From: Natranaerofaba carboxydovora
GTDB lineage: Bacteria; Bacillota; Natranaerobiia; Natranaerobiales; Natranaerofabaceae
Assembly (NCBI RefSeq): GCF_022539405.1
Contig: NZ_CP054394.1
Coordinates: 2,798,501-2,862,500, forward strand
Length of the DNA: 64,000 bases
Reading direction: 5' to 3'
The notes beneath the pieces were generated by a model, which made no database searches, was not told where the DNA came from, and worked only from the letters and a program-made list of their open reading frames with translations. A program made the position numbers and the translations under genes. Below, one piece after another: positions 14,122 through 43,967 of the stretch (positions are counted from its first letter, which is position 1; every line of letters starts with the position of its first letter).

Positions 14122-15057
14122 ATGAGAACTCCCCTTTTAACAAATATCTGGCATCAAGCCCTTGATTTAGAACAAAAAAAGCCTGTCTCAAGGATAAACA
14201 TGGACTTTTATAACCCGAATCACGCAGAAATCAATTTAGCTGATAACATGGAAATGCCAAATCCTAACTTGATATCTTTTGCCATCCCAAAAGCTCGTTT
14301 GAACATGCCGCCTCTCTCTTTGGAACCTATAGACGGTATAATAAGGGATGTAAAAATCGAGGAAGATTCTAATGATCCTAATCATTTAAAAGGTACAATA
14401 AACACTGAACATTCTATACTATGTCATATAAAAGAAGAAAAAGGCATGCCCCATAGGGTTACCCTTGAATTTGATAGAAAAGTATTTTCAAAGTACCTAA
14501 AAGAAAAAGTTATACTAATTGACCCTGGACATGGAGGTAAAGACACCGGAGGTATTAGCCCGGTAGGCTTAATGGAAAAAGACGTGGTTCTTGACTTTTC
14601 GAAGAGATTAAAGAAGTATCTAGATTACTGGCAGGCAGAAGGGATTTATACCAGGGAAAGGGACGTAAATGTCCCTCAAAAAGATCGAACCAGAATCATA
14701 AAAGAAAATAATCCTGATCTTATTATCTCTCTTCACACTGGCACAGGAACAGTTGGGGAAGTGTTAGGACCAAGGGCAAAGTTTTTTGTGGACGGTGAAA
14801 AAAAAGGAAAAGAAACTGCTAATAATATCTATATGCCATATGCAAATAGGCTACCATTCCCAGAAAGAGAAGTAGTAAAGAGCAGTTCAAAGTTGTTGTC
14901 AGTTTTTCCAGAGAGAAGCATTATCATGGAAGTATCAAATATTTCGAGCAGATTAGAGGAAGGCTGGCTAAGAGACTACGGCTTTGTGGAAGATATGGTT
15001 AGAGGACTTGTTGTAGGAATTAAAAATCATTTTTCTAAAAGTTCACAGAAGCTTTAG
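14122..15057 (+). CDS. N-acetylmuramoyl-L-alanine amidase (Amidase_3 family)
   Basis: A protein of about 311 residues with a C-terminal zinc amidase domain: LIDPGHGGKDTG (first Zn His), MEKDVVL (Zn Glu), ISLHTGTG (second Zn His) and IMEVSNIS (catalytic Glu). These enzymes cleave the bond between MurNAc and the peptide stem. The first 120 or so residues are a novel-looking beta-rich part with no signal peptide, so the site of action is unclear; a role in sporulation or germination is possible given the flippase next door. ATG 14122 lies 8 bp after GGAG, preferred to the GTG at 14113. Its 3' end overlaps the convergent spoVB-like gene by 15 bp. Confidence 0.8.
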   Translation: MRTPLLTNIWHQALDLEQKKPVSRINMDFYNPNHAEINLADNMEMPNPNLISFAIPKARLNMPPLSLEPIDGIIRDVKIEEDSNDPNHLKGTINTEHSILCHIKEEKGMPHRVTLEFDRKVFSKYLKEKVILIDPGHGGKDTGGISPVGLMEKDVVLDFSKRLKKYLDYWQAEGIYTRERDVNVPQKDRTRIIKENNPDLIISLHTGTGTVGEVLGPRAKFFVDGEKKGKETANNIYMPYANRLPFPEREVVKSSSKLLSVFPERSIIMEVSNISSRLEEGWLRDYGFVEDMVRGLVVGIKNHFSKSSQKL

Positions 15058-16656
15058 GGTTTTTAGTATGCGTACCAACATGTCCCCTACCTTTGGAATT
15101 ACTAGCAGATCTTCTTCCTCTATCCCTCTAAATATGAGAAGGGTTAAAAAATAGACAATACCAGCAATTGATACTTTTAAGATGAAATTTAAGGCATCTA
15201 CAGCAAAGAAAGTATCTATTACCATGTCAAACCTTATTAAAAAAACAGCCATAACAGCTGAAGCTATTAGAGGTTTAAAACCAGTTTTGAAAAAATTAAT
15301 TGACAATTTTTTTAACTTTATTAGGTCCTTAATATTTAAAATAGAAGCTAAAAAAAATCCAGACCCAGTTCCTATGGCCGCTCCAAGGATACCGAGGGGC
15401 GGGTAAGCTGTAAGGTTGTAGTTAAGGATAAAGTTCAAAATCGCCCCAATAAACAGGTTAATAACAGGTTTAGGATAATACCCGAGGCCTTGAAGCATAA
15501 AGGAAGTAACCTGGTGCAAACACAAAAACAGTGACGCAAATGCCATAACCCTAAGGGGACCTCCCGCTTCATAGTAGCCAAACATAAGCTCGGTCATCTC
15601 ATAAGCCAGTAAGAAAATTCCAACAGAGGTAGGTATGCCTATTATCAGGGTTAGTCTAAGGGCTTTTTCTATATTGTTTTTGATTTTTTGGTGGTATCCT
15701 TTGACCTGATAAGTCGATAGTACAGGTATAAGACTTGTGCCAAGGGCAAGGGTGACAATTGTCGGAAGGCTTATAAGCCTTAAGGCCATCCCTGAGAGAT
15801 GGCCATACAAGCTTGTAGCTTCAGAGACACTATAACCAATTAATTGTAGCCTTTTGGGGACTACTGCCGCATCAACTGTCTGCATAAGAGGCATTACAAG
15901 AGCACCTAGAGAAAAAGGCACTGCAATTTTTAACAGGCGAAATAAAGTGCTTCCACTTTTTATGACACTTTTTATAAAAATCCTAGACAAAAATAAAATA
16001 AGTACAAAGCTGATGCCTTTTTCTCTGACAAAAAGAAAAATTAACAATACAAGGCCAAAAAAAGCACCAGTAACAGCTCCCAAAGTTGCCCCTGCAGCAC
16101 CATACATTGGCCCGGCCTGGCTATATAAATAACCAAAAAAAAGCATGGTAAACACTCTTATAAACTGCTCTGTCACCTGAGAAATTGCTGTAGGGGTCAT
16201 TAAATGTAGCCCCTGAAAATACCCTCTAAAACCTGACATTATAGAGACAAAGAAAATAGCAGGTGATATTATCTTTAGCGAATACATCACCCTGTAATCA
16301 CCAAGAATATTAACAGATATGAATTCGGCGCCTACATATAAAATAATACTAAATATTATTCCGGTAACACTTAAAGCAGATAGAGCCGTACAAAAAACTA
16401 TTTTTTCTTCTTCAAAGTTTTTTGAGGCTCTTTTTTCGGATACAAGTTTACTTATCGCTACGGGAAATCCGGCTACAGCTAGTATTAACAAAAGACTATA
16501 AATAGGATAGGCCATTTCATAAAGTCCTATACCCTCTTCTCCTATAATTCTAGCAAGAGGCATGCGATAAAAGGCACCTAAGAGCTTACTTATAGTTCCT
16601 GCAAGCATCAAAACAAGTGCTCCTCTAGCAAAGCTTTCTCTTTTCATTGGCATCAC
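15043..16656 (-). CDS. spoVB: SpoVB-like MurJ/MOP-superfamily flippase
   Basis: A 537-residue polytopic protein with about 14 membrane helices and the family start ARGALVLMLAGTISKLLGAFYR. It belongs to the polysaccharide/lipid-II exporter (MOP) superfamily; SpoVB members act in spore cortex formation by moving lipid-linked precursors. A distinct MurJ is encoded at 46570-48129, which supports a specialised sporulation role here. Its start overlaps the end of the upstream cyclodeaminase-like gene by one base. Confidence 0.85.
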   Translation of the reverse strand: MMPMKRESFARGALVLMLAGTISKLLGAFYRMPLARIIGEEGIGLYEMAYPIYSLLLILAVAGFPVAISKLVSEKRASKNFEEEKIVFCTALSALSVTGIIFSIILYVGAEFISVNILGDYRVMYSLKIISPAIFFVSIMSGFRGYFQGLHLMTPTAISQVTEQFIRVFTMLFFGYLYSQAGPMYGAAGATLGAVTGAFFGLVLLIFLFVREKGISFVLILFLSRIFIKSVIKSGSTLFRLLKIAVPFSLGALVMPLMQTVDAAVVPKRLQLIGYSVSEATSLYGHLSGMALRLISLPTIVTLALGTSLIPVLSTYQVKGYHQKIKNNIEKALRLTLIIGIPTSVGIFLLAYEMTELMFGYYEAGGPLRVMAFASLFLCLHQVTSFMLQGLGYYPKPVINLFIGAILNFILNYNLTAYPPLGILGAAIGTGSGFFLASILNIKDLIKLKKLSINFFKTGFKPLIASAVMAVFLIRFDMVIDTFFAVDALNFILKVSIAGIVYFLTLLIFRGIEEEDLLVIPKVGDMLVRILKTLKLL

Positions 16657-17249
16657 TACTCTTCTAATATTTTTTCTTCAATGCTCTCAAGTATCTTCTC
16701 AAAATTTTTTTCCCCTACTTTTATAAGCTTTTGTCTTTCTTCCAAAGCAAAAGAATACAGTTCTCCTCTTTCTAGATCTTCCAGGTTGATCTTCACACAG
16801 GCTAGACTTCCCATCAGTGAAGCTTTTGTTTTATGCACCCCAGCATACAATGCTGTAGTAAATTGGCTGTTTAATATATTTAGTCCAATATTGTCATCAA
16901 CTTTAGTAATAATTTCTAAAATATTATTGCACTTTTGAGCTATTAGGATGGGTATGACCACTGTTTCTTTTGTAACAGTTTCCTTGGGTTTTGACTTTGC
17001 CCTAATTATCCTGTACGCTTCATCTACAACATCCATTAATTCTTCTTTAATATTAAAAATTCTTTCAATGTTTTTTTTAAGTTCTAATTTATCTTCGTCT
17101 TTTTTTTCTTTATAAAGGTTTTTCAAGTATGCAAGTAATAAAGAAGCGGCCAGGGCACCTGTCAATGCTAAAGAACTTTCACTGCTCGGATAGGTGGACT
17201 CATCTGACAGTATTTCATTATATTCTTTGAGGGACTTATCCAAATACAT
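16656..17249 (-). CDS. Cyclodeaminase/cyclohydrolase (FTCD_C-like) family protein
   Basis: A 197-residue all-helical protein resembling formiminotetrahydrofolate cyclodeaminase or FchA-type methenyl-THF cyclohydrolase. An N-terminal SLALTGALAASLLLAYLKN block occupies the place of the family's P-G-G-G-S-x-A-A-L motif, and an LNSQFTTALYAGVHKTKAS block sits toward the C-terminus. The glycine-rich motif is degraded to SSESS, so catalytic activity is doubtful. It is coupled to the spoVB-like gene by a one-base overlap. Confidence 0.6.
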   Translation of the reverse strand: MYLDKSLKEYNEILSDESTYPSSESSLALTGALAASLLLAYLKNLYKEKKDEDKLELKKNIERIFNIKEELMDVVDEAYRIIRAKSKPKETVTKETVVIPILIAQKCNNILEIITKVDDNIGLNILNSQFTTALYAGVHKTKASLMGSLACVKINLEDLERGELYSFALEERQKLIKVGEKNFEKILESIEEKILEE

Positions 17250-17354
17250 TCATTAACCCCCTTGGCATATAAATATAGAATAGACTAACCAGTTGTCTAA
17301 AAATATCCGTTTCTTTACATTGATATGAAATAAAATATTGTTAATTACTACAAA

Positions 17355-17382
17355 TAAAAAAACCGCCAATTTTAGGGCGGTT
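17355..17382 (-). terminator. Rho-independent terminator after metK
   Basis: Arms AACCGCC and GGCGGTT enclose a short A/T loop, and on the minus strand a run of T residues follows. It lies about 95 bp beyond the metK stop codon and ends that transcript. Confidence 0.85.
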
Positions 17383-17474
17383 AATTAAATCATTTAAAAA
17401 CACTGTACTTTTTGATACTTTTGTAAATAAACTTTTGATAGAAGCACAAATTTAGGTTAAAAATGGCCTATTTT

Positions 17475-18659
17475 TTAGGCATCACTTTTTAATATATCTT
17501 TTTTGTCAGTTCTCTCCCAGGGAACATCCAAATCAACTCTTCCCATATGTCCATAACTTGCAAGCTGTCTATATATAGGTCTTCTTAAACCTAAGTTTTC
17601 TATTATGGCAGCAGGTCTCAAATCAAAATGTTTTCTTACAAGCTCTTCGATTTTTTCTTCAGCAATCTTATTTGTGTTAAAAGTTTCAACAAATACGCTT
17701 ACCGGGTTGGCGACACCAATAGCATACGAAACCTGAAGTTCACACTTGTCGGCAAGACCTGCAGCGACTATATTCTTTGCCACATATCTTGCAGCATAAG
17801 CAGCTGATCTATCTACTTTAGTAGGGTCTTTGCCGGAGAAAGCACCTCCACCATGCCTTGAAAATCCTCCATAAGTATCCACTATTATCTTTCTACCTGT
17901 CAGGCCTGCATCTCCCTGAGGCCCCCCTGTCACAAATCTCCCTGTAGGGTTGATAAGAATCTTGGTCTTATCATCAATCAATTCCTCTGGAAGAACCGGG
18001 GTAATAACCTGTTCTCTAACTCCTTTGTGAAGCTCGTCTTCGGTTACGCTAGAGCTGTGCTGGGTAGAAACAACGATAGCATCAATTCTCTTAGGGTTTC
18101 CATTATCATATTCTATCGTAACCTGGCTTTTGCCATCTGGTCTAAGATAATCTAAGATGTTTTCTTTTCTAACTTTGGCCAAACGTTTGGTCAGCCTGTG
18201 AGCAAAATCTATGGGCATTGGAAGCATGCTATCAGTTTCGTTGGTTGCAAAACCAAACATCATTCCCTGATCACCCGCTCCAATTGCTTCGATCTCTTCT
18301 TCTGAAAGTTCTCCTTCTCTTGCTTCTAATGCCTTGTCTACACCCATAGCAATATCAGGTGATTGCTCATCAATTGATGTAAGTACTCCGCATGTTTCCC
18401 CATCGAAGCCATATTTGGCCCTGGTATAACCTATGTCCAAAATCGTCTGTCTTACAATCTTTGGTATATCTACATAGCAGCTAGTTGTTATTTCCCCTGC
18501 AACAAGAACAAGACCAGTAGTTACACTTGTTTCTGCAGCCACCCTCGCTCCTGGATCCTCTTTTAAAATTTCATCGAGGATAGAATCAGAAATTTGATCT
18601 GCCAATTTGTCCGGATGTCCTTCAGTTACCGATTCTGAAGTAAAAAATTTATTACTCAA
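17475..18659 (-). CDS. metK: S-adenosylmethionine synthetase
   Basis: A 394-residue full-length MetK that makes SAM from methionine and ATP. Signatures: [20 protein letters not shown] at the N-terminus (ATP site His and Asp), the [10 protein letters not shown] hexapeptide loop near residue 125, and the P-loop-like [16 protein letters not shown]. The ATG start follows GGTAAGGAAATTTG. The gap to the upstream fabZ is 58 bp and holds no SAM riboswitch, unlike many metK genes of this phylum. Confidence 0.97.
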
Positions 18660-18717
18660 ATTTCCTTACCTCCAGTCTATTGTTTTATTAACTAATATTA
18701 TACAGCTATTTGCCCTG

Positions 18718-19143
18718 CTATTGCAAAGCGAATGTAAGTTCACTACTCACAGCTTTTTCGCCGTTAACTGTACAAACACCCTCTCCCTTGCCTACAGGCC
18801 CCTTTAGCCTGGTTAGTTCTACTTCCAAAGTTAACACATCTCCTGGCACCACCTGGCGCCTAAATTTCACCTTATCCATACCTCCAAACAACACAAGTTT
18901 TCCTTTGTTGTCCGGAACAGTAAGTATTGTTACTGCTCCTACCTGGGCTAGTGCTTCCACAATTAACACCCCGGGCATCACAGGTTTCTCCGGGAAATGT
19001 CCCTGGAAAAAAGGCTCATTCACAGTGACATTTTTTACCCCTTTGGCCCATTTGCCGGGCTCATATTCTTCTATCCTGTCGATTAATAAAAAAGGATAGC
19101 GGTGAGGAATTATACTTTTTATCTCATCAATGTTTAGTCCCAA
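18718..19143 (-). CDS. fabZ: 3-hydroxyacyl-ACP dehydratase FabZ
   Basis: A 141-residue hot-dog fold dehydratase of type II fatty acid synthesis. It has the family start [14 protein letters not shown], the catalytic His in [15 protein letters not shown] and the catalytic Glu in [12 protein letters not shown]. The length is normal. It stands apart from other fab genes here, just upstream of metK. The start follows GAGGAGG. Confidence 0.96.
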
Positions 19144-19190
19144 CTATAAAACCTCCTCTTATTCTTTTAATTTATTTCGGCAAAACACGT

Positions 19191-19300
19191 TGTTTAACAC
19201 GCTAAAGTATATAAACATAGCTTTTGTTTTATATTGTTAATACATCTTGATGAATAAGCAGATAGATTAGGCTATGGGAATATACTTTAGCTGTTAAACA
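19191..19300. repeat. MITE-like element, family 1, copy B
   Basis: A second copy of the element at 131-251. The terminal inverted repeat GCTAAAGTATAT is at 19201-19212 and its complement at 19280-19291. Outer arms TGTTTAACA (19191-19199) and TGTTAAACA (19292-19300) pair with one another yet differ from the outer arms of copy A. Its edge lies one base from the stop codon of the HesB-like selenoprotein gene. Confidence 0.75.
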
Positions 19301-19301
19301 T

Positions 19302-19613
19302 TTAGATTCCTCTAGCTATAAGTTGTTTAAAAATCCAAAAACCTTTGATATCAATTATTATGCCGCGTTCTTCACTGTGTGGTTTTATGTTTTCTGAGAT
19401 AAATACATCTGTCCCTTCGATATTTTTCTTAAGGTATTCAGTTTCTTTCTCCAAGTCTGGCGCACCGACCTGAACCTCAGGTCCATAGGCAGTACCGCAT
19501 CATCCCCCACCAAGTTTAACTATGCCAACGGTTAAGGAATCAATAGACTTTCTGTTTATATATTCTAATGCTCCTGGCTCTATATCAACTTTAATATCTC
19601 TTGTATCTCCCAC
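19302..19613 (-). CDS. HesB-like selenoprotein (CC/Se motif family), UGA at 19500-19502 read as Sec
   Basis: A 103-residue product if the in-frame TGA, codon 38, is read as selenocysteine. The local sequence is KLGGG-U-CGTAYGPEVQVG, and the gene closes with GFWIFKQLIARGI then TAA. This is the small HesB/IscA-like family that occurs with either Cys or Sec before the CG pair. The start is GTG 19613, about 10 bp after a GGGGGG run; no ATG is in frame. After the TGA come 16 nt, then a hairpin with 7-bp arms. The gene sits between sfsA and fabZ and between two dispersed repeats. Function in the family is unproven; an Fe-S or redox role is assumed. Confidence 0.9.
19467..19483 (-). promoter_or_regulatory. 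SECIS-like hairpin of the HesB-like selenoprotein
   Basis: Read on the minus strand, GACCTGA-GGT-TCAGGTC forms a perfect 7-bp stem with a GGT loop, starting 17 nt after the UGA. Bacterial SECIS elements lie immediately downstream of UGA inside the coding sequence, with a G in the apical loop, as here. Selenoprotein synthesis genes (selA-D) are not in the window. Confidence 0.75.
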
Positions 19614-19643
19614 AAGTATAACCCCCCTTCTTCATTTGTACAA

Positions 19644-19658
19644 TATATACAGTATATA
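19644..19658. promoter_or_regulatory. Palindrome in the HesB-like selenoprotein promoter
   Basis: The sequence TATATAC-A-GTATATA is a perfect 7-bp inverted repeat about an A, 30 bp upstream of the GTG start. It could be an operator or part of an AT-rich -10 region. No regulator is identified. Confidence 0.35.
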
Positions 19659-19663
19659 ATGCT

Positions 19664-19774
19664 GATTTAACTGCAAAAGTCATGCGAACAAAGTTTGGTT
19701 TTAATTGCAAAACATCTTGATGAGAAAATAGGAAAACTGAGTTTTATGTAAATGGACTTTTTGCTCTAGAATCA
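19664..19774. repeat. Dispersed inverted-repeat element, family 2, full-length copy
   Basis: About 111 bp bounded by imperfect terminal inverted repeats: GATTTAACTGCAAAAGTC at the left and, on the other strand, GATTCTAGAGCAAAAAGTC at the right. The left end continues into CATGCGAACAAAGTTT, matching the copies near 36.2 and 56.3 kb. It fills the space between the HesB-like gene and sfsA. Confidence 0.6.
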
Positions 19775-19781
19775 AGTATTC

Positions 19782-20522
19782 TTACAGTTTGACCGGCAAG
19801 CTATCTCCCCACTTAATTCCCTCGGGAGTAACTTTGACAAAATACGCCAAAATTTCCGCTCCTTTTTCATCAAGCTTTACAAGGCTTTTACTAAATTCAG
19901 GGTCCATCTCCCAGTTAGGCGAAAACTCTTTGGCATCATCCCTTTGCACCAAAAACACTACAAAAGACATATATCCTTCGTCTACAGCTTCTGCTAATTC
20001 ATCTAAGTGTCTTTTGCCTCGAGAAGTGGGCGCATCGGGAAAAAGAGCTGTATTTTCTTTTACCAGGGTTACTGACTTACATTCAACAAGGGCTTTATAA
20101 TCTCCTTTTTGACCTTCTTTTCTAAGGCCAAACTCTAAGTCAAATTTCCCACTCTTGTATTTAGGTTCTCTTCTTAATAATTTTGCTTCCTCTAGAGGTG
20201 GGATATAATTATTTAACACAGCTTTTTCAAAAATTTTGTTTGGCAGTCTACTATCTAAGGATACCCATTTACCCTTATATTTAACTAAATAAAGATCAAA
20301 AGCTGTTTTTCTTGAAGAATTAAGAGGGGCAGGTTGTACCATAACCTCTGCCCCTTCTGTTAAAAGCTCTTTCATTCTGCCTGAATTAGGCACATGACAT
20401 AGCGTCTTATTATTAGAATTGTCATTTGAAGAATAATCTTTTATTGCAACCTCACAGACAAATCTATTCACTCGTCTAACAAACCTACCTTTAATTAATT
20501 TAACATCAAATGGATAAAACAT
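19782..20522 (-). CDS. sfsA: Sugar fermentation stimulation protein SfsA
   Basis: A 246-residue full-length SfsA family protein: an RVNRFVCEV OB-like start, CHVPNSGRMKELL, VECKSVTLV (nuclease-like core) and FPDAPTSRGKRHLDEL. SfsA proteins bind DNA and have a restriction-enzyme-like core; the physiological role is poorly known. The gene stands alone, with a repeat element just beyond its 3' end. Confidence 0.95.
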   Translation of the reverse strand: MFYPFDVKLIKGRFVRRVNRFVCEVAIKDYSSNDNSNNKTLCHVPNSGRMKELLTEGAEVMVQPAPLNSSRKTAFDLYLVKYKGKWVSLDSRLPNKIFEKAVLNNYIPPLEEAKLLRREPKYKSGKFDLEFGLRKEGQKGDYKALVECKSVTLVKENTALFPDAPTSRGKRHLDELAEAVDEGYMSFVVFLVQRDDAKEFSPNWEMDPEFSKSLVKLDEKGAEILAYFVKVTPEGIKWGDSLPVKL

Positions 20523-20564
20523 TCGAAATTGTCTCCTGTCAAAAGGTTTCTATACTATAGATTT

Positions 20565-21932
20565 CTATACTGAAAAGATTTCTTTTTTTAGTACTTTTTC
20601 TAAATCTTCTAGTGTATTACACTCAAACATGTTTACGTATTCCTGAAAAGCACTTATCTGAGGGACATCCTCCCATTTATCTGCTGGAACCGGGTTTAGC
20701 CAGACGATATTTTTAACTTTCCTGTCTAGCTCTTTTAGTTTTGATTTGGCACGATCAAGGCCTGAACTCATACCATCGCTTAATATTATCACAGTGGTAT
20801 CTGGCCTTAATATATATTCCCACTTTTCTTCTAAAGTTGCCAAGGATACACCAAGATCGGTAGCTCCTCCCCATTCAGCACTGCTATTTACAAGATCTGT
20901 GATTGATTTTTCAAAATTGTCTTTTTGCTTTAGCCAGTCTGTAATTCTTTCTATGTCTTCGCTGAATATAAAACCCTCAATCTTTCTGACAGCACTTCCA
21001 AGCCCGTAAATGAACTGAAGCAAAAAGGACGTATATCTTGCCATAGAACCTGAGACATCACAGATAACAAGCAAAGAAGGTTTACTTTTTCTTTTTTCTT
21101 TGTAGCTTATATTAAACATCGTACCGCCGTAGGAGATATTTTGCCTGATAGTTTTTCTCATATCAAGACGGGCCGCTTTCTTTGTTCTCTTGTATCTTCT
21201 AGAGATCCTGTTCATCATTTTCTTAATTAAAGAATACATAACCCTTCTAGCTTTGGGCAGGTCTTTGTCTGTTAAATCTTTTAAGTCCTTTTGACTTATC
21301 TTAGCGGATGAAGAAGAACCACTTCCATTATCCTTACTTTTTATCTCATCTCTAATTGTATCAAGCTCTTCGTCCCCTGTATCCTGAATCATATCAGTTG
21401 GTAGGTTATCTCTAAGGTTTTCTTCCCATCTATTAAGAGAACTCCTTACCATATTTTCAATTATAGGTCTAAAGTTTTCGTCTACATTTTGTCCATGTTC
21501 AGTTTGCTCGAGAACATTTCTAATCTGCTCTTTATACTTTTCTTCCATATTTGCATAGGTTAGTTTTTGGTCCTCGTCTAATTCTAATGGATCTCCCATA
21601 AATTGAAGGTCTTCAGTGGCCTCTTCTATCTGGGCATTTTTCTCTTCAATTTTGGCATTTCTCTCCTCTTGCATTTGAGATTTTTGCTCTGGTAGTTGAA
21701 AAAAGTACTCAAAAGCATCTTCAAAGATACCTTCCTTATCTTTTTCTTTTAGAAGGGTACATTTAAGGGAATATTTAAATTCCTCTTTGTCCGTTATATC
21801 AGCTTCGTTTAATGCATTAAAGACATCTATAACTTCACTTGTACTTACCCTTACACCAAGGGATCTGAGTAAGCTTGCAAATTTTATTAAAGATGTTTGT
21901 AGACTTCTCTCTTCAACAGTATTATCGCTCAT
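20565..21932 (-). CDS. VWA (CoxE-like) domain protein
   Basis: About 455 residues. The first half is helical and very acidic (a Glu/Gln-rich stretch at about 105-140). The C-terminal half is a von Willebrand A domain with an intact metal-ion site: DVSGSMARYTS, a Thr in GGATDLG and LSDGMSSG. Such proteins work with MoxR-type AAA ATPases in maturing or remodelling partner proteins. The partner here is encoded 20 bp upstream. ATG 21932 lies after a GGGGGA site; an ATG five codons upstream is less well placed. Confidence 0.85.
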   Translation of the reverse strand: MSDNTVEERSLQTSLIKFASLLRSLGVRVSTSEVIDVFNALNEADITDKEEFKYSLKCTLLKEKDKEGIFEDAFEYFFQLPEQKSQMQEERNAKIEEKNAQIEEATEDLQFMGDPLELDEDQKLTYANMEEKYKEQIRNVLEQTEHGQNVDENFRPIIENMVRSSLNRWEENLRDNLPTDMIQDTGDEELDTIRDEIKSKDNGSGSSSSAKISQKDLKDLTDKDLPKARRVMYSLIKKMMNRISRRYKRTKKAARLDMRKTIRQNISYGGTMFNISYKEKRKSKPSLLVICDVSGSMARYTSFLLQFIYGLGSAVRKIEGFIFSEDIERITDWLKQKDNFEKSITDLVNSSAEWGGATDLGVSLATLEEKWEYILRPDTTVIILSDGMSSGLDRAKSKLKELDRKVKNIVWLNPVPADKWEDVPQISAFQEYVNMFECNTLEDLEKVLKKEIFSV

Positions 21933-21952
21933 AAAATCATCCCCCAAAGCCC

Positions 21953-22834
21953 TTATTCACGTACATTGGCACACAGCGCATCGGCACCAATATTCTCATT
22001 AAAATGATCAATATCTTCTTTTGTTTTTAATAGCAGGTTAATTGTACTCTTTACGAGTTCAGGATCAAGCTTACTTGCATCTAAAGCTACAAGAGCCCTG
22101 GTCCAGTCGAGGGTTTCTGCAATAGATGGTTTCTTTCTAATTTCATTGTCATCTCTGATAATTTTAAGGGCTTTTGCAACCTGCTCTGTAAGTTTTTCTT
22201 CAATTCCAGGAACTTTTGAAGATATAATCTCTTTTTCTTTTTCTACTGTAGGATAATTCAAGTAAAGATAGATACAGCGTCTTTTTAACCCATCTGATAG
22301 TTCTCTTTCGTTATTGCTTGTCAAAACAACTATTGGAATCTCACCAGCCTGAATTGTGCCAAGTTCAGGTACTGATACGGTGAAGTCGCTAAGAACTTCA
22401 AGCAAAAATGCTTCAAATTCTTCATCAGTCTTATCTATCTCATCGATCAATAATACTGGAGCTTTATTTGATCTGATTGCTTTTAACAGAGGCCTTTCTA
22501 ATAAATATTCTTCGCTGAAAAGATCATCTTCTAATACATCTTCACTTACATTATCCTGTTTTAACTGAATTTTCAGAAGTTGTTTTTGATAGTTCCACTC
22601 ATATAATGCTTTATTTTCGTCTAGTCCTTCATAACACTGAAGCCTTATTAACTCAGTATCAAAAATATTTGCAAGTACTTTGCTGATCTCTGTCTTACCA
22701 ACCCCTGCATCACCTTCTAATAAAAGAGGTTTGTTTAACTTTAGCGCTAGATATACTGTCGTCAAAATCTCTTTATCTGCAACATATTTTTCCTTTCTAA
22801 ATCCTTTCGCCAATTCATCAACTGAAATTTTCAC
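21953..22834 (-). CDS. MoxR-family AAA ATPase
   Basis: A 293-residue AAA+ ATPase with Walker A LEGDAGVGKTEISK (about residue 40), Walker B VLLIDEIDKTDEEFE, a sensor 1 segment VVLTSNNEREL and an arginine-finger region GLKRRCIYL. It pairs with the VWA protein downstream as in CoxD/CoxE and MoxR/VWA systems. The substrate is not evident from the neighbours. The two genes form a short operon. Confidence 0.9.
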   Translation of the reverse strand: MKISVDELAKGFRKEKYVADKEILTTVYLALKLNKPLLLEGDAGVGKTEISKVLANIFDTELIRLQCYEGLDENKALYEWNYQKQLLKIQLKQDNVSEDVLEDDLFSEEYLLERPLLKAIRSNKAPVLLIDEIDKTDEEFEAFLLEVLSDFTVSVPELGTIQAGEIPIVVLTSNNERELSDGLKRRCIYLYLNYPTVEKEKEIISSKVPGIEEKLTEQVAKALKIIRDDNEIRKKPSIAETLDWTRALVALDASKLDPELVKSTINLLLKTKEDIDHFNENIGADALCANVRE

Positions 22835-22982
22835 TATGAATCTCCCCTTAGTTAAAATTTTTCTAAGTTAATTTTAATTACATTTTACACTATGAAAAAA
22901 TTTAACACAGTGACTTAACTCACACTTTATTATAAATCACCAGATCAGTAAAGGCTTGTTAGATAACTTCAATAAAAGTTTA

Positions 22983-23030
22983 ACAACAAAAAACGACCAG
23001 TTCAAAGTACATACCTTGAGCCGGTCGTTT
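22983..23030 (-). terminator. Rho-independent terminator
   Basis: A long hairpin with outer arms AAACGACC and GGTCGTTT and a further paired inner segment, followed on the minus strand by a T-run. It ends the transcript of the small gene at 23086-23292. Confidence 0.85.
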
Positions 23031-23085
23031 GTTATGTTCCGCCTTTCACTTTCCTGTGCATATGAAAAAGTTTCATATGTCACCC

Positions 23086-23292
23086 CTAGTTGTAGAATTC
23101 TTTCTTTTCTTCACCTTTGCCGTTCTTTGCTAGTATCGGTTCTTTTTGATACTTTTTAACAGCTTCCATGTCCTCGTCGATCTCCATTATTCTTACCAAA
23201 AGATCCATTCTATTACTTCCCTTTGAGTTCAAAAACTCTTCATACAAGCTTTCTTTCGCTGTCTTAAGCGCTTTTAGGTGTGTGCGTCTCAT
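23086..23292 (-). CDS. Small helical protein of unknown function (68 residues)
   Basis: A short protein that is helical in character and highly charged (MRRTHLKALKTAKESLYEE, later MDLLVRIMEIDEDMEAVKKY), with a Lys/Glu-rich tail. It has an excellent AAGGAGGGG site 5 bp before ATG and its own terminator, so it is very likely real. It is not a Spo0E-like phosphatase: the SQxLD motif is missing. No family is recognised. Confidence 0.7.
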   Translation of the reverse strand: MRRTHLKALKTAKESLYEEFLNSKGSNRMDLLVRIMEIDEDMEAVKKYQKEPILAKNGKGEEKKEFYN

Positions 23293-23600
23293 ATTTGCCC
23301 CTCCTTTGTATAACTATTGTGTAGGTAACTCCTCATATTCGCAGCTAAATAGCCGAGTATTATTAGTGAAGAATTTCACTTTGATAATCTAATACTATTA
23401 TAACTCTAGCCATTCTACTTGTAAACCCCTTTTTAAAACTTTTTAAAAATTTTTTACTATACCTAAATATTATTCTTAAGCAAAATTCCGTGATTATGCG
23501 TAATTTAAGCAATTTTCTAAATTTAAAAATTTTTATAAGAAGTTTCAAAGCGACCTGTATGTGAAAATACATAAATATCAGATCGCTTTGAAGCTTTGTT
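23293..23600. other. AT-rich intergenic region
   Basis: About 308 bp with no supported gene. It holds the promoter of the 68-residue protein and, at 23544-23592, the hairpin beyond cheW. The rest is very AT-rich and gives only low-quality short reading frames. Confidence 0.6.
23544..23592 (-). terminator. Hairpin downstream of the chemotaxis operon
   Basis: Arms TTCAAAGCGA and TCGCTTTGAA form a perfect 10-bp stem about 10 bp beyond the cheW stop codon. An AT-rich tract with several T residues follows on the minus strand. It probably ends the operon transcript. Confidence 0.7.
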
Positions 23601-24155
23601 TTAATTAACCTCTTCACTGTCCATTTTGTTAATTTCCTGGACCTTTGCTAATTCTTCAAATGAAATCACTCTGTATGGATCTAGAAGCAGTATAATTTTG
23701 TCATCGGTTTTAGCCATCCCTTTTAGGTGTTCTGTTTTAATATCTTCTGCAAATTCTTTGTCAACTACCTGGATATCTTCTGTATCAAAACTTACAATAT
23801 CCGATACTCTATCTACAATCAAGCCCATGGTTTTGTTTTCTACTTCAACAACTATAACCACGGTGAAATTATCATATTCTACCTCGGGCAGGTTAAATTT
23901 TTTCCTTAAATCAATCTGTGGAATAACCTTGCCTCGAAAATTTATAACACCGTTTATTACAGGATTAGTATTAAATACCCTGGTTGGCTTGTGGTAACGA
24001 ATGATTTCTTGTACCAGTAATATGTCTATACCGTATTCCTCTTCTCCTACTGTAAAAGTCACAAACTGGTTTTCCCTAGATACATTTAAAAGCTGTTGGT
24101 TTAGGATATTAAGTGTATTGTCGCCCCATTTACTACCTTTATCACCATTTGCCAT
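23601..24155 (-). CDS. cheW: Chemotaxis coupling protein CheW
   Basis: A 184-residue protein with a standard CheW fold: FTVGEEEYGIDILLVQEI, PVINGVINFRGKVIPQIDLR and the VDRVSDIV segment near the C-terminus. It links receptors to CheA at the membrane. An extra N-terminal stretch of about 30 residues and a short acidic tail are present. It is the last gene of the che operon, after the receptor gene. Confidence 0.95.
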   Translation of the reverse strand: MANGDKGSKWGDNTLNILNQQLLNVSRENQFVTFTVGEEEYGIDILLVQEIIRYHKPTRVFNTNPVINGVINFRGKVIPQIDLRKKFNLPEVEYDNFTVVIVVEVENKTMGLIVDRVSDIVSFDTEDIQVVDKEFAEDIKTEHLKGMAKTDDKIILLLDPYRVISFEELAKVQEINKMDSEEVN

Positions 24156-40573: not shown

Positions 40574-41500
40574 TTAACAAAAGCCTCTTTCATCTGAAAT
40601 TAATAAATCAAAAAATTGTTTAGTAATTCCTTCTGATATGTCCTTAGGCTTATAAACCATTGTAAATGTATGCGGGAAATTAACATCTTGTAATTTTATA
40701 ATTTTTAGGGTTTTGTGTCGAATCTCTTTCTTGATTGCCATCCTTGGCAAAAATGAAAGGCCCTTATCTGCAGATACAGCAGAAATAATAGATGAGATAT
40801 TATTAATTTCAAGAACTACGTTCAAGTCTTTTAATGAAATATTTTGATCAGCTAAGTTTTTTTCTATGGTAGCCCTTATACCTGAACCCTTTTCTTTCAA
40901 TATCAAGTTATATTTAGCCAGTTCTGAGACGGTGATGTGGTCCCTATCTATCCATGGTTCTTTATATGGAGCTACAAGTTCAATATAGTCATTTCCAAGG
41001 CGTTTTAAGGCCAAGCCTTCGTTCGTCAGTTTTTTTCTTAACTCGGAGCTAATTGGACCTTCTATAAGGCCCATTTGAACATTGCCATCTAGTACCTGGT
41101 TGATAACCTCAGGTGAGTTATAAACATCTAGATCAATTTCATTTTTGGGGTATTTTTCCTTAAAAATATAAATACTGCACGGCACAGCATAACCACCAAT
41201 AGTATTTGATGCTGCTACTTTTAACGTCTCTTGGTTAGAGCTAGCTAGATCATTTATTTTTGATTCTATATTAGAAAGTATATTTAGAAGTCTTCCTCCT
41301 TCTAGGTATAATATTTCGCCGGCAGGAGTTAAGCTAACACCTTTTGTAGTTCGATTTAGAAGAGGAGTCTTAAAGTACTTCTCTAAATAATTAATCTGTG
41401 AACTAAGAGCAGGTTGACTGAGATGAAGCTCCCTAGAAGCTTTTGTAATGCTTCCTTCTTCAACAACGACCATAAAAGCTCTTATAGTTTCTAGGTTCAT
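40574..41500 (-). CDS. LysR-family regulator (selenium-metabolism type, likely)
   Basis: A 308-residue LysR regulator: N-terminal winged helix (MNLETIRAFMVVVEEGSIT, ASRELHLSQPALSSQINYLE) and a periplasmic-binding-like effector domain. It is transcribed divergently from the YedE-type transporter gene with 46 bp between the starts, the typical setting for control of that gene. ATG 41500 follows AAGGAGG by 7 bp; the longer frame would run through the shared promoter. A specific LysR group goes with yedE/tusA in selenoprotein-making bacteria, and membership is inferred from position. Confidence 0.88.
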   Translation of the reverse strand: MNLETIRAFMVVVEEGSITKASRELHLSQPALSSQINYLEKYFKTPLLNRTTKGVSLTPAGEILYLEGGRLLNILSNIESKINDLASSNQETLKVAASNTIGGYAVPCSIYIFKEKYPKNEIDLDVYNSPEVINQVLDGNVQMGLIEGPISSELRKKLTNEGLALKRLGNDYIELVAPYKEPWIDRDHITVSELAKYNLILKEKGSGIRATIEKNLADQNISLKDLNVVLEINNISSIISAVSADKGLSFLPRMAIKKEIRHKTLKIIKLQDVNFPHTFTMVYKPKDISEGITKQFFDLLISDERGFC

Positions 41501-41546
41501 GGATGTTACCTCCTTAATAATAAAAAGTACAAAGGAGAGTTGTTTT

Positions 41547-42674
41547 TTGAAAACACTCAAGGAAAACAAAGCCACAAATTCTAAAAAAGCTCTAATTTAT
41601 ATTATAACAGCTATAATCTTTTATTTCATAGCAAAATATAATTATATTATATTTTTTGGCATTTTGCTTGGTTATACCATGCAAAAATCAAGGTTTTGTT
41701 TTACTGCTGCTTTTCGTGATTTATTTCTCATAGGAAACACCAGCTTGTTTCGTGGACTAATAATAATTCTATTCTTAAAAACTCCTCTCTTCGCATTAAT
41801 ATATCAATATTCTAGCAGCAGCTTCAACCTATCACCTGTTGGGCTATGGACTATAATTGGAGCAGTTTTGTTTAGCATGGGAATGGTTATTGCAGGCGCT
41901 TGTGTAACTGGTAGCATGGTTAGATTAGGAGAAGGCTACATTATGCAGCAATTTTCTTTACTTGGTATACTTCTTGGCTCGGTCTTTGGAGCATTTCATG
42001 TTTCTTTCTTTGAAAGAAAGTTTATGTTTGGTCCAGTTTTTATCCCAGAATACCTAAATTTAACTTTTGTTGTATTAATCCAACTTTTTATTTTGGCAGG
42101 GTTGTTTATAATCTCTCTTTGGCTAGAAAGAGGCAAAGAAGCTTTAAGTATTAGTGCTATCAAAAATTCACTAATATTTTCATTCCCAAAAGATCCATGT
42201 AAAAAATTCTGGCCTTATAATATGGGTGCGATATTTATTGTAGTTATCATGTCTATAATGTTCTTATTATACGGCACCCCCTGGGGCATTACTACCTCTT
42301 TAACCCATCTTGCCGGCGGTATAGCAGGACTTTTTGGAATTGACATCTCTAATTGGAGTTTTTTTGGTTATGAAAGTTTATTTGCCCATCCATTGATTCT
42401 TGTTAATTTAGGGATTATCCTAGGTTCATTTTTGAGTTCCTTTTCTTCATCTGAATTTAGAATTAGAAAGCCAAGATCGTATAAATTCATTATTTCAGGG
42501 TTAATGGGCGGAATATTAATGGGTTATGGTGCCAGGCTTGCTGAGGGCTGCAATATTGGTGCTCTAATAAGTGCTATACCTTCTTTTTCCCTTCATGGCT
42601 GGGTATTTATGTTTTCTTCATTTATTGGAGCTTATATAGGAAGTAAAATTTTACTATCCTATTTAATTGAATAA
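41547..42674 (+). CDS. yedE: YedE/YeeE-family transporter (putative selenium metabolism membrane protein)
   Basis: About 375 residues, with about ten membrane helices. Conserved family motifs: QKSRFCFTAAFRD, GMVIAGACVTGSMVRLGEG and, in the second repeat, GYGARLAEGCNIGALIS, each with a Cys in a Gly-rich loop. YeeE/YedE proteins move thiosulfate or a reduced sulfur or selenium species in concert with a TusA protein; one is encoded 1 kb away. The start is TTG 41547, 9 bp after AAAGGAG; longer frames run into the LysR gene. A terminator follows at 42832-42871. Confidence 0.85.
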   Translation: MKTLKENKATNSKKALIYIITAIIFYFIAKYNYIIFFGILLGYTMQKSRFCFTAAFRDLFLIGNTSLFRGLIIILFLKTPLFALIYQYSSSSFNLSPVGLWTIIGAVLFSMGMVIAGACVTGSMVRLGEGYIMQQFSLLGILLGSVFGAFHVSFFERKFMFGPVFIPEYLNLTFVVLIQLFILAGLFIISLWLERGKEALSISAIKNSLIFSFPKDPCKKFWPYNMGAIFIVVIMSIMFLLYGTPWGITTSLTHLAGGIAGLFGIDISNWSFFGYESLFAHPLILVNLGIILGSFLSSFSSSEFRIRKPRSYKFIISGLMGGILMGYGARLAEGCNIGALISAIPSFSLHGWVFMFSSFIGAYIGSKILLSYLIE

Positions 42675-43130: not shown

Positions 43131-43967
43131 TTGAGTAAACTCAACAGAAAGAAGTTTCTTAAAACTGGCGGACTTTCGCTAGCAGCACTTGCTTTTGCAC
43201 CAACAATTGGAGGTTGTGGTAAAGATACCCCAGCAGCTGATCCTGCTGACGAGAAGGAAATTGATGTTCCTGAGTATCCTTTTGAAGGTCTAGTTAAGAT
43301 TGATGACCTTGACTATGTTAAGCAGCGTGCATGGGATGGATACAAAGAAGGTGGATGAGGCTACGGTGCTGCCGAAGGGACCTTCGGCATACTAGCAGAA
43401 GAAGTAGGATATCCGTTTGACCAGATTGCAACAAAAATGTTCTGGCCTTTTAGAGGAGGACTTAGCGGTTGGGGATCGATCTGTGGTGCAATACCACCAG
43501 CAGCAGCTTTCTTAGCAGCTATTGCTGAACCAGATGATCACATGGATCTAACCCAGGAGTTAATGGCATGGTATCAGCAGTTCCCATTCCCTGAGACTCA
43601 GCTTGGCGACACAGGGGAGCTACCACAGACACCTGTTAATTCTAGTCTATGTCACGTATCCATCACAAAGTGGATGGTTTATGCCAACAAAGAACATGGC
43701 ATGGATATTGAAAGTAGAGGAGATGATAGAAGAGGAGATAGATGTGCTGGACTAACTGCTGACGTTGCTGCTTATACTATCGAAATGATGAATAAGTTTA
43801 TCGATGGTGAGTTTGAAGTAGTACACACTCCTGCTGAAGTAAGAGATGACTGCATGGCTTGTCATGATGATACCGGTGGTAATCACGACTATGCTGCACA
43901 TGGGCAAGAAGACTGCACTGAGTGTCACACTGATAAGTGGGAAGACTACACAGAAGATCATCCATAA
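43131..43967 (+). CDS. Split-Soret-type dihaem cytochrome c with selenocysteine (UGA at 43356-43358)
   Basis: 278 residues if the in-frame TGA, codon 76, is read as Sec. The two halves are exactly in frame and the stretch between has no other stop. N-terminus: RKKFLKTGGLSLAALAFAP, a Tat-like leader, then IGGC, a lipobox-like Cys. Around the TGA: KEGG-U-GYGAAEGTFGIL, where split-Soret/C_GCAxxG_C_C proteins have Cys, and downstream GGLSGWGSICGA. Two haem c motifs, CMACH and CTECH, lie near the C-terminus. The start is TTG, 6 bp after GGGGGTGG. In Desulfovibrio the family binds two haems and an Fe-S centre; the Sec probably replaces a cluster or redox Cys. Terminator follows. Confidence 0.9.
43371..43388 (+). 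promoter_or_regulatory. SECIS-like hairpin of the split-Soret selenocytochrome
   Basis: GCCGAAGG-GA-CCTTCGGC, an almost perfect palindrome; realistic folding gives a 7-bp stem GCCGAAG/CTTCGGC with loop GGAC. It starts 13 nt after the UGA, so the apical G lies about 20 nt downstream, inside the range for bacterial SECIS elements. Confidence 0.75.

Follow-up and report, generated by a model that had tools for sequence, protein, structure and literature searches.

A predicted CC/Se motif family selenoprotein with probable distant kinship to HesB/IscA, encoded across an in-frame TGA in Natranaerofaba carboxydovora

The window analysed here, a stretch of 64,000 nucleotides from the anaerobic bacterium Natranaerofaba carboxydovora, contains on its minus strand a reading frame (19302 to 19613) that is interrupted by one TGA, and the question raised by this locus is whether the TGA is a stop or a selenocysteine (Sec) codon and to which protein family the product belongs. 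The frame opens with GTG (19613-19611), reaches the TGA at codon 38 (19502-19500), continues directly with Cys39 and ends with TAA (19304-19302). With TGA read as Sec it codes for 103 residues followed by the stop, and the 104-codon gene described in an earlier note is thus exact in its coordinates. A Shine-Dalgarno-like sequence, AAGGGGGG, was recognized by eye 8 nucleotides 5' of the GTG on the same strand (19622 to 19629). Promoter-like sites were about equally frequent in the native and the shuffled sequence (5 versus 3.3), and an Rfam search of window positions 15000 to 24000 gave no match. No standard-code ORF of at least 80 amino acids is present on the minus strand at this locus, and it was fair to remark, as the earlier note did, that neither half of the gene would be called by length. 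Open frames of at least 37 codons before and at least 65 codons after a TGA are moderately rare (10 of the 2277 TGA triplets in the window). The gene is flanked upstream by sfsA (19782 to 20522; TIGR00230, 184 bits) and downstream by fabZ (18718 to 19143; NF000582, 190.4 bits), both on the minus strand. At 20565-22834, also on the minus strand, a gene for a VWA-domain protein is paired with one for an AAA ATPase; the two are MadC/MadB-like and both score below the respective cut-offs.

An open frame and a hairpin are by themselves not rare, and it is therefore family homology across the TGA that decides whether the observation is real. The alignment with the CC/Se motif family proposed in the earlier note, with UGA read as Sec, gave a clear answer. 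The read-through protein matches the NCBIfam model NF041239, 'CC/Se motif family (seleno)protein' (Moor_selen_rel), with 58.2 bits (E 6.6e-16; curated cut-off 40 bits) over profile positions 1-90 of 91, which is nearly full length, and this was its sole NCBIfam match at E <= 1. Since such a match might derive from the upstream residues, an independent family model was built from 41 relatives, with the window protein left out, and the two parts were scored separately. The full protein reached 62.1 bits, the 37 residues before the TGA 11.3 bits and the 65 residues after it 34.7 bits, whereas the best of 2000 shuffles each gave 6.4 bits for the full protein and 6.1 bits for the downstream part. 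Homology is thus found on both sides of the TGA, which aligns with TGA or Cys in the family members, and the earlier note was right to propose a selenoprotein gene concealed by a UGA within its frame. Codon 38 almost certainly encodes Sec, and we are highly confident that the gene is a predicted selenoprotein of the CC/Se motif family, which it resembles in its score, its length, the Sec at the motif column and the position of its SECIS.

This family is already catalogued but little studied, and the gene described here is a new member. In the table of a 2026 review, NF041239 is listed with the motif CxxU as a 'hypothetical protein predicted in Moorella thermoacetica' (PMC13188914). Within our literature search, the family name or the model number was found in no paper other than that review. 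The family occurs in 31 of the 101 genomes searched, including N. carboxydovora itself, with 56 matches, most of them with a single in-frame TGA; 54 were kept, the two left out being a near-copy from genome G052 and one from G079 that matched weakly. Both genomes listed as belonging to the same order (G001 and G002) are among the 31, and their orthologues, as well as one relative from G040, carry TGA at the same place as the window gene. These four genes, all with TGA, group together with support 97/95 in a tree of 52 of the 54 sequences (rows shorter than 85 residues and duplicates dropped), in which the columns are few and many other forks are unresolved. The 53 relatives are 15-39% identical to the window protein, and the family is too divergent for searches at the identity level, so that no match was obtained when 84,980 genomes were searched in this way with the window protein.

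Four CC/Se genes are present in the genome of N. carboxydovora, three with TGA (the window gene included) and one Cys-only with CC. The three paralogues of the window gene (L009, L008 and L010, at G000:C1 381634, 498169 and 2615040) lie near an alanine racemase, an ATP-grasp protein and a sortase. Among the members from other genomes, L071 (G046:C37:53694-53924) and L074 (G079:C15:79738-79962) have two adjacent TGA codons, a possible double-Sec motif (UU), with a hairpin downstream.

The perfect hairpin reported in the earlier note, with 7 bp and a GGT loop, is present at 19467 to 19483 on the minus strand (GACCTGA-GGT-TCAGGTC). Its stem begins at nucleotide 17 past the TGA, and 23 nucleotides separate the TGA from the loop. 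The bacterial SECIS model, as quoted in PMC13188914, has a loop of 3-9 nucleotides, a stem of 4-16 bp, a spacing of 16-37 nucleotides, a G within the first two loop positions and an energy <= -7.5, and the SECIS-like hairpin agrees with every value quoted there (3-nucleotide GGT loop, 7 bp, spacing 23, -8.6 kcal/mol). The RNA fold over 58 nucleotides has z = -1.3, and 24 of 200 dinucleotide shuffles fold as well. Watson-Crick stems of this length are found in the allowed zone of 9 of 2276 TGA triplets of the window, or of 110 when G-U pairs are counted. The shape of the hairpin alone is weak evidence for a SECIS. The stem stands out when the peptide is recoded synonymously: seven Watson-Crick pairs were reached in 0.49% of 20000 recodings (4.25% with G-U pairs), and a fold as stable in 0.8% of 3000.

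In most relatives the hairpin loop also begins 23 nucleotides past the TGA, in the context CCTRC-CGTGTNY-GYRGG or a variant of it. The window hairpin, with its 7-bp stem and GGT loop, departs from this form, lacking the family base pairs and having a shorter loop, while its distance from the TGA is the same. Covariation was analysed in 28 of 41 Sec members, the window gene included, selected by a rule based on the protein only (Pro at Sec+7, Val at Sec+9). The family helix was paired in 91.1% of cases and four of its six pairs had changed on both sides. Cells changed on both sides numbered 22, compared to 5.5 in shuffles, which leave relatedness in (none of 500 shuffles as high), and the covariation score was 0.354, compared to 0 to 0.08 for slid controls, which remove relatedness. 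A DNA pattern derived from the family SECIS was run over the contig collection, some of whose genomes are also in the set of 101, and matched 43 times, in 42 stretches. Full-length read-through ORFs of the family, each of at least 49 bits, accounted for 41 of the 43; of the other two, one lies in an ORF that is short and broken (20.9 bits), the other in a Streptomyces stretch without family match. Two rows of the 43 (L136 and L141) were dropped to give the set of 41 proteins.

The earlier note had made its reading depend on Sec machinery in the genome, and all components were found: selA (584.7 bits), selB (376.6 bits), selD (401 bits), whose own frame contains a TGA, and tRNA-Sec (70.3 bits) with the anticodon TCA. 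UGA 38 would be decoded by SelB and Sec-tRNA(TCA), aided by the hairpin 17 nucleotides downstream. It had also been proposed that the genome uses Sec in at least two proteins, counting the cytochrome gene at 43131. More than one such gene is indeed present, but the figure was an underestimate, as the three CC/Se genes, selD and the gene at 43131 all carry an in-frame TGA. The latter (43131-43967, plus strand) is a split-Soret cytochrome c gene with its TGA in GGUGYGAAEG; it matches NF047622 with 147 bits, below the cut-off of 400, and weakly matches C-GCAxxG-C-C (TIGR01909). A literature search found no paper joining the terms 'split-Soret cytochrome' and 'selenoprotein'. The cytochrome gene adjoins one for a YedE/FdhT-like membrane protein (41448-42674, plus strand; NF033796, 180 bits, below the cut-off of 350), whose family is linked to selenium metabolism.

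The product had been named a HesB-like selenoprotein of the CC/Se family, of which the CC/Se part stands. The name merges two families, however: HesB-like (TIGR01911, motif UxGP) and CC/Se (NF041239, CxxU) are separate entries with separate models in the table of PMC13188914. A profile search of the genome with TIGR01911 gave no match, and the UxGP motif is absent at Sec38, where the window protein reads U38-C-G-T. Similarly, the Pfam HesB family (PF01521) matches neither the window protein nor, at E <= 0.001, any other protein of the genome. Within the family, weak matches were obtained with PF01521 in 18 of the 54 members at E <= 1 (best E 0.0016) and with TIGR01911 in 3 of the 54. The 54-member CC/Se alignment was compared by hhalign to 22 of the 26 TIGR01911 matches (17 HesB-like and 5 IscA-like by eye). 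The two profiles aligned over 80 columns at 96.1% with a score of 49.6, and their Sec columns coincided, whereas the reversed control gave 1.0% (score 13.9) and none of 40 column shuffles scored above 14.5.

A sequence search of solved structures gave no match for the window protein and only chance-level matches for the family profile. An AlphaFold model of the window protein was considered beside the profiles (41 relatives as alignment; pLDDT 84.6, pTM 0.72). The best PDB matches of this predicted model in Foldseek were SufA (2d2a, E 2.1e-4) and IscA (1r94, E 5.2e-4). In a second structure comparison IscA 1s98 scored Z 8.0 over 84 residues at 3.1 A, a Z of about 8 being called borderline by the tool, and the ten best rows, with Z from 8.0 to 4.5, were all of HesB type, among them IscA, SufA, DsrR and YneR, the next row having Z 3.5. 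The structural Z alone is borderline, and the kinship with HesB/IscA is taken as likely because sequence profile and fold agree. Profile and predicted structure together make it likely that the window protein folds like HesB/IscA, and the CC/Se and TIGR01911 HesB-like families look like distant kin; it is in this sense, of distant kinship and fold, that 'HesB-like' survives. We claim no priority for this link. In such a fold Sec38 would occupy the position of the HesB/IscA superfamily's first conserved Cys.

The window protein contains one Sec and one Cys in all, the adjacent Sec38 and Cys39, and so fails the CxxU motif listed for NF041239 in PMC13188914. Among 90 distinct members, 78 have U at the motif column; of the remaining 12, CC is present in 10 and missing from 2. 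Another Cys or Sec lies within 4 residues of Sec in 63 of the 78 Sec members, at -3 (27), +1 (19), +3 (12), -1 (3), +4 (1) or both -1 and +3 (1), and with Cys at -3 in just 27 and at +1 in 19, CxxU does not define the family. No partner Cys is found within 5 residues in the remaining 15, including the paralogue L008 of N. carboxydovora, and a Sec-Cys pair can therefore not be essential to the whole family. In most members Sec would pair with a nearby thiol, as a selenenylsulfide or a soft ligand pair.

The neighbourhood of 40 CC/Se loci, taken from the set picked by the SECIS pattern, was scanned. The strongest recurrent neighbour was a gene for a thioredoxin-fold protein, downstream and on the same strand, at 12 of the 40 loci; Pfam confirmed the fold in three examples, one of which is adjoined by a DsbD_TM gene. 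No thioredoxin gene is adjacent to the window gene, which sits between sfsA and fabZ, or among the listed neighbours of its three paralogues. The thioredoxin-fold and DsbD_TM neighbours of some loci suggest thiol redox chemistry. The Sec38-Cys39 pair would act as a reversible selenenylsulfide, probably re-reduced by thioredoxin, or as a soft metal/chalcogen-binding site. As Sec38 and Cys39 are the only chalcogens present, such a role is favoured over that of a classical Fe-S scaffold, although we put the redox or chalcogen/metal role itself at no better than even.

Other readings of the locus were weighed against these results. The TGA could be a genuine stop where a Cys codon once stood, with the remainder a pseudogene remnant, and the Cys-only family member of the genome could take over the function. 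Decay is nevertheless very improbable: the 65 codons past the TGA are open and family-like, G001, G002 and many others share a TGA in that column, a hairpin occupies the SECIS site of the family and the Sec machinery is complete. Equally improbable is that the protein is a true HesB-like selenoprotein of TIGR01911. It shares with that family the alignment of Sec with Sec at a profile kinship of 96%, the order of helix and strands and the size, and its predicted fold is IscA/SufA-like, but it differs in its C-terminus and in lacking UxGP at Sec38 and any match to the model, in the genome or, for the protein itself, at E <= 1, and the two families are catalogued apart in the table of PMC13188914.

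A further alternative is a functional variant of the preferred CC/Se selenoprotein reading, namely that the protein is an A-type Fe-S or metal carrier whose dimer binds a cluster or a soft metal via Sec-Cys pairs. Its predicted fold is that of the A-type carriers IscA and SufA of PF01521 (2d2a, 1s98, 1x0g), and because no Pfam HesB/IscA gene was found in the genome, that role might be vacant. A C-terminal CxC provides the defining ligands of IscA-type scaffolds. The window protein lacks this CxC and a PF01521 match, and has Sec instead of the first Cys; with two adjacent chalcogens and no CxC, it would probably not build Fe-S clusters in the classical way. Moreover, in 11 of the 78 Sec members the whole protein contains just one chalcogen, and a missing IscA is not known to need replacement. 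We consider the carrier role unlikely, though far less so than decay of the gene.

Returning to the reading of the gene as a CC/Se selenoprotein, we tentatively suggest, as a possibility well short of probable, that CC/Se is a Sec-specialised branch of HesB/IscA that has lost Fe-S scaffolding, in which a nearly invariant Sec and a wandering partner thiol (CxxU, UC, UxxC, CU) may serve as a redox or metal/chalcogen relay, and that the four paralogues of N. carboxydovora may replace the missing IscA/HesB. A covarying SECIS at a fixed distance makes CC/Se members findable from DNA alone, given that 41 of the 43 sequences matched by the pattern were family genes of full length, and the likely fold gives a reason to treat this unexplained family as a relative of HesB/IscA.
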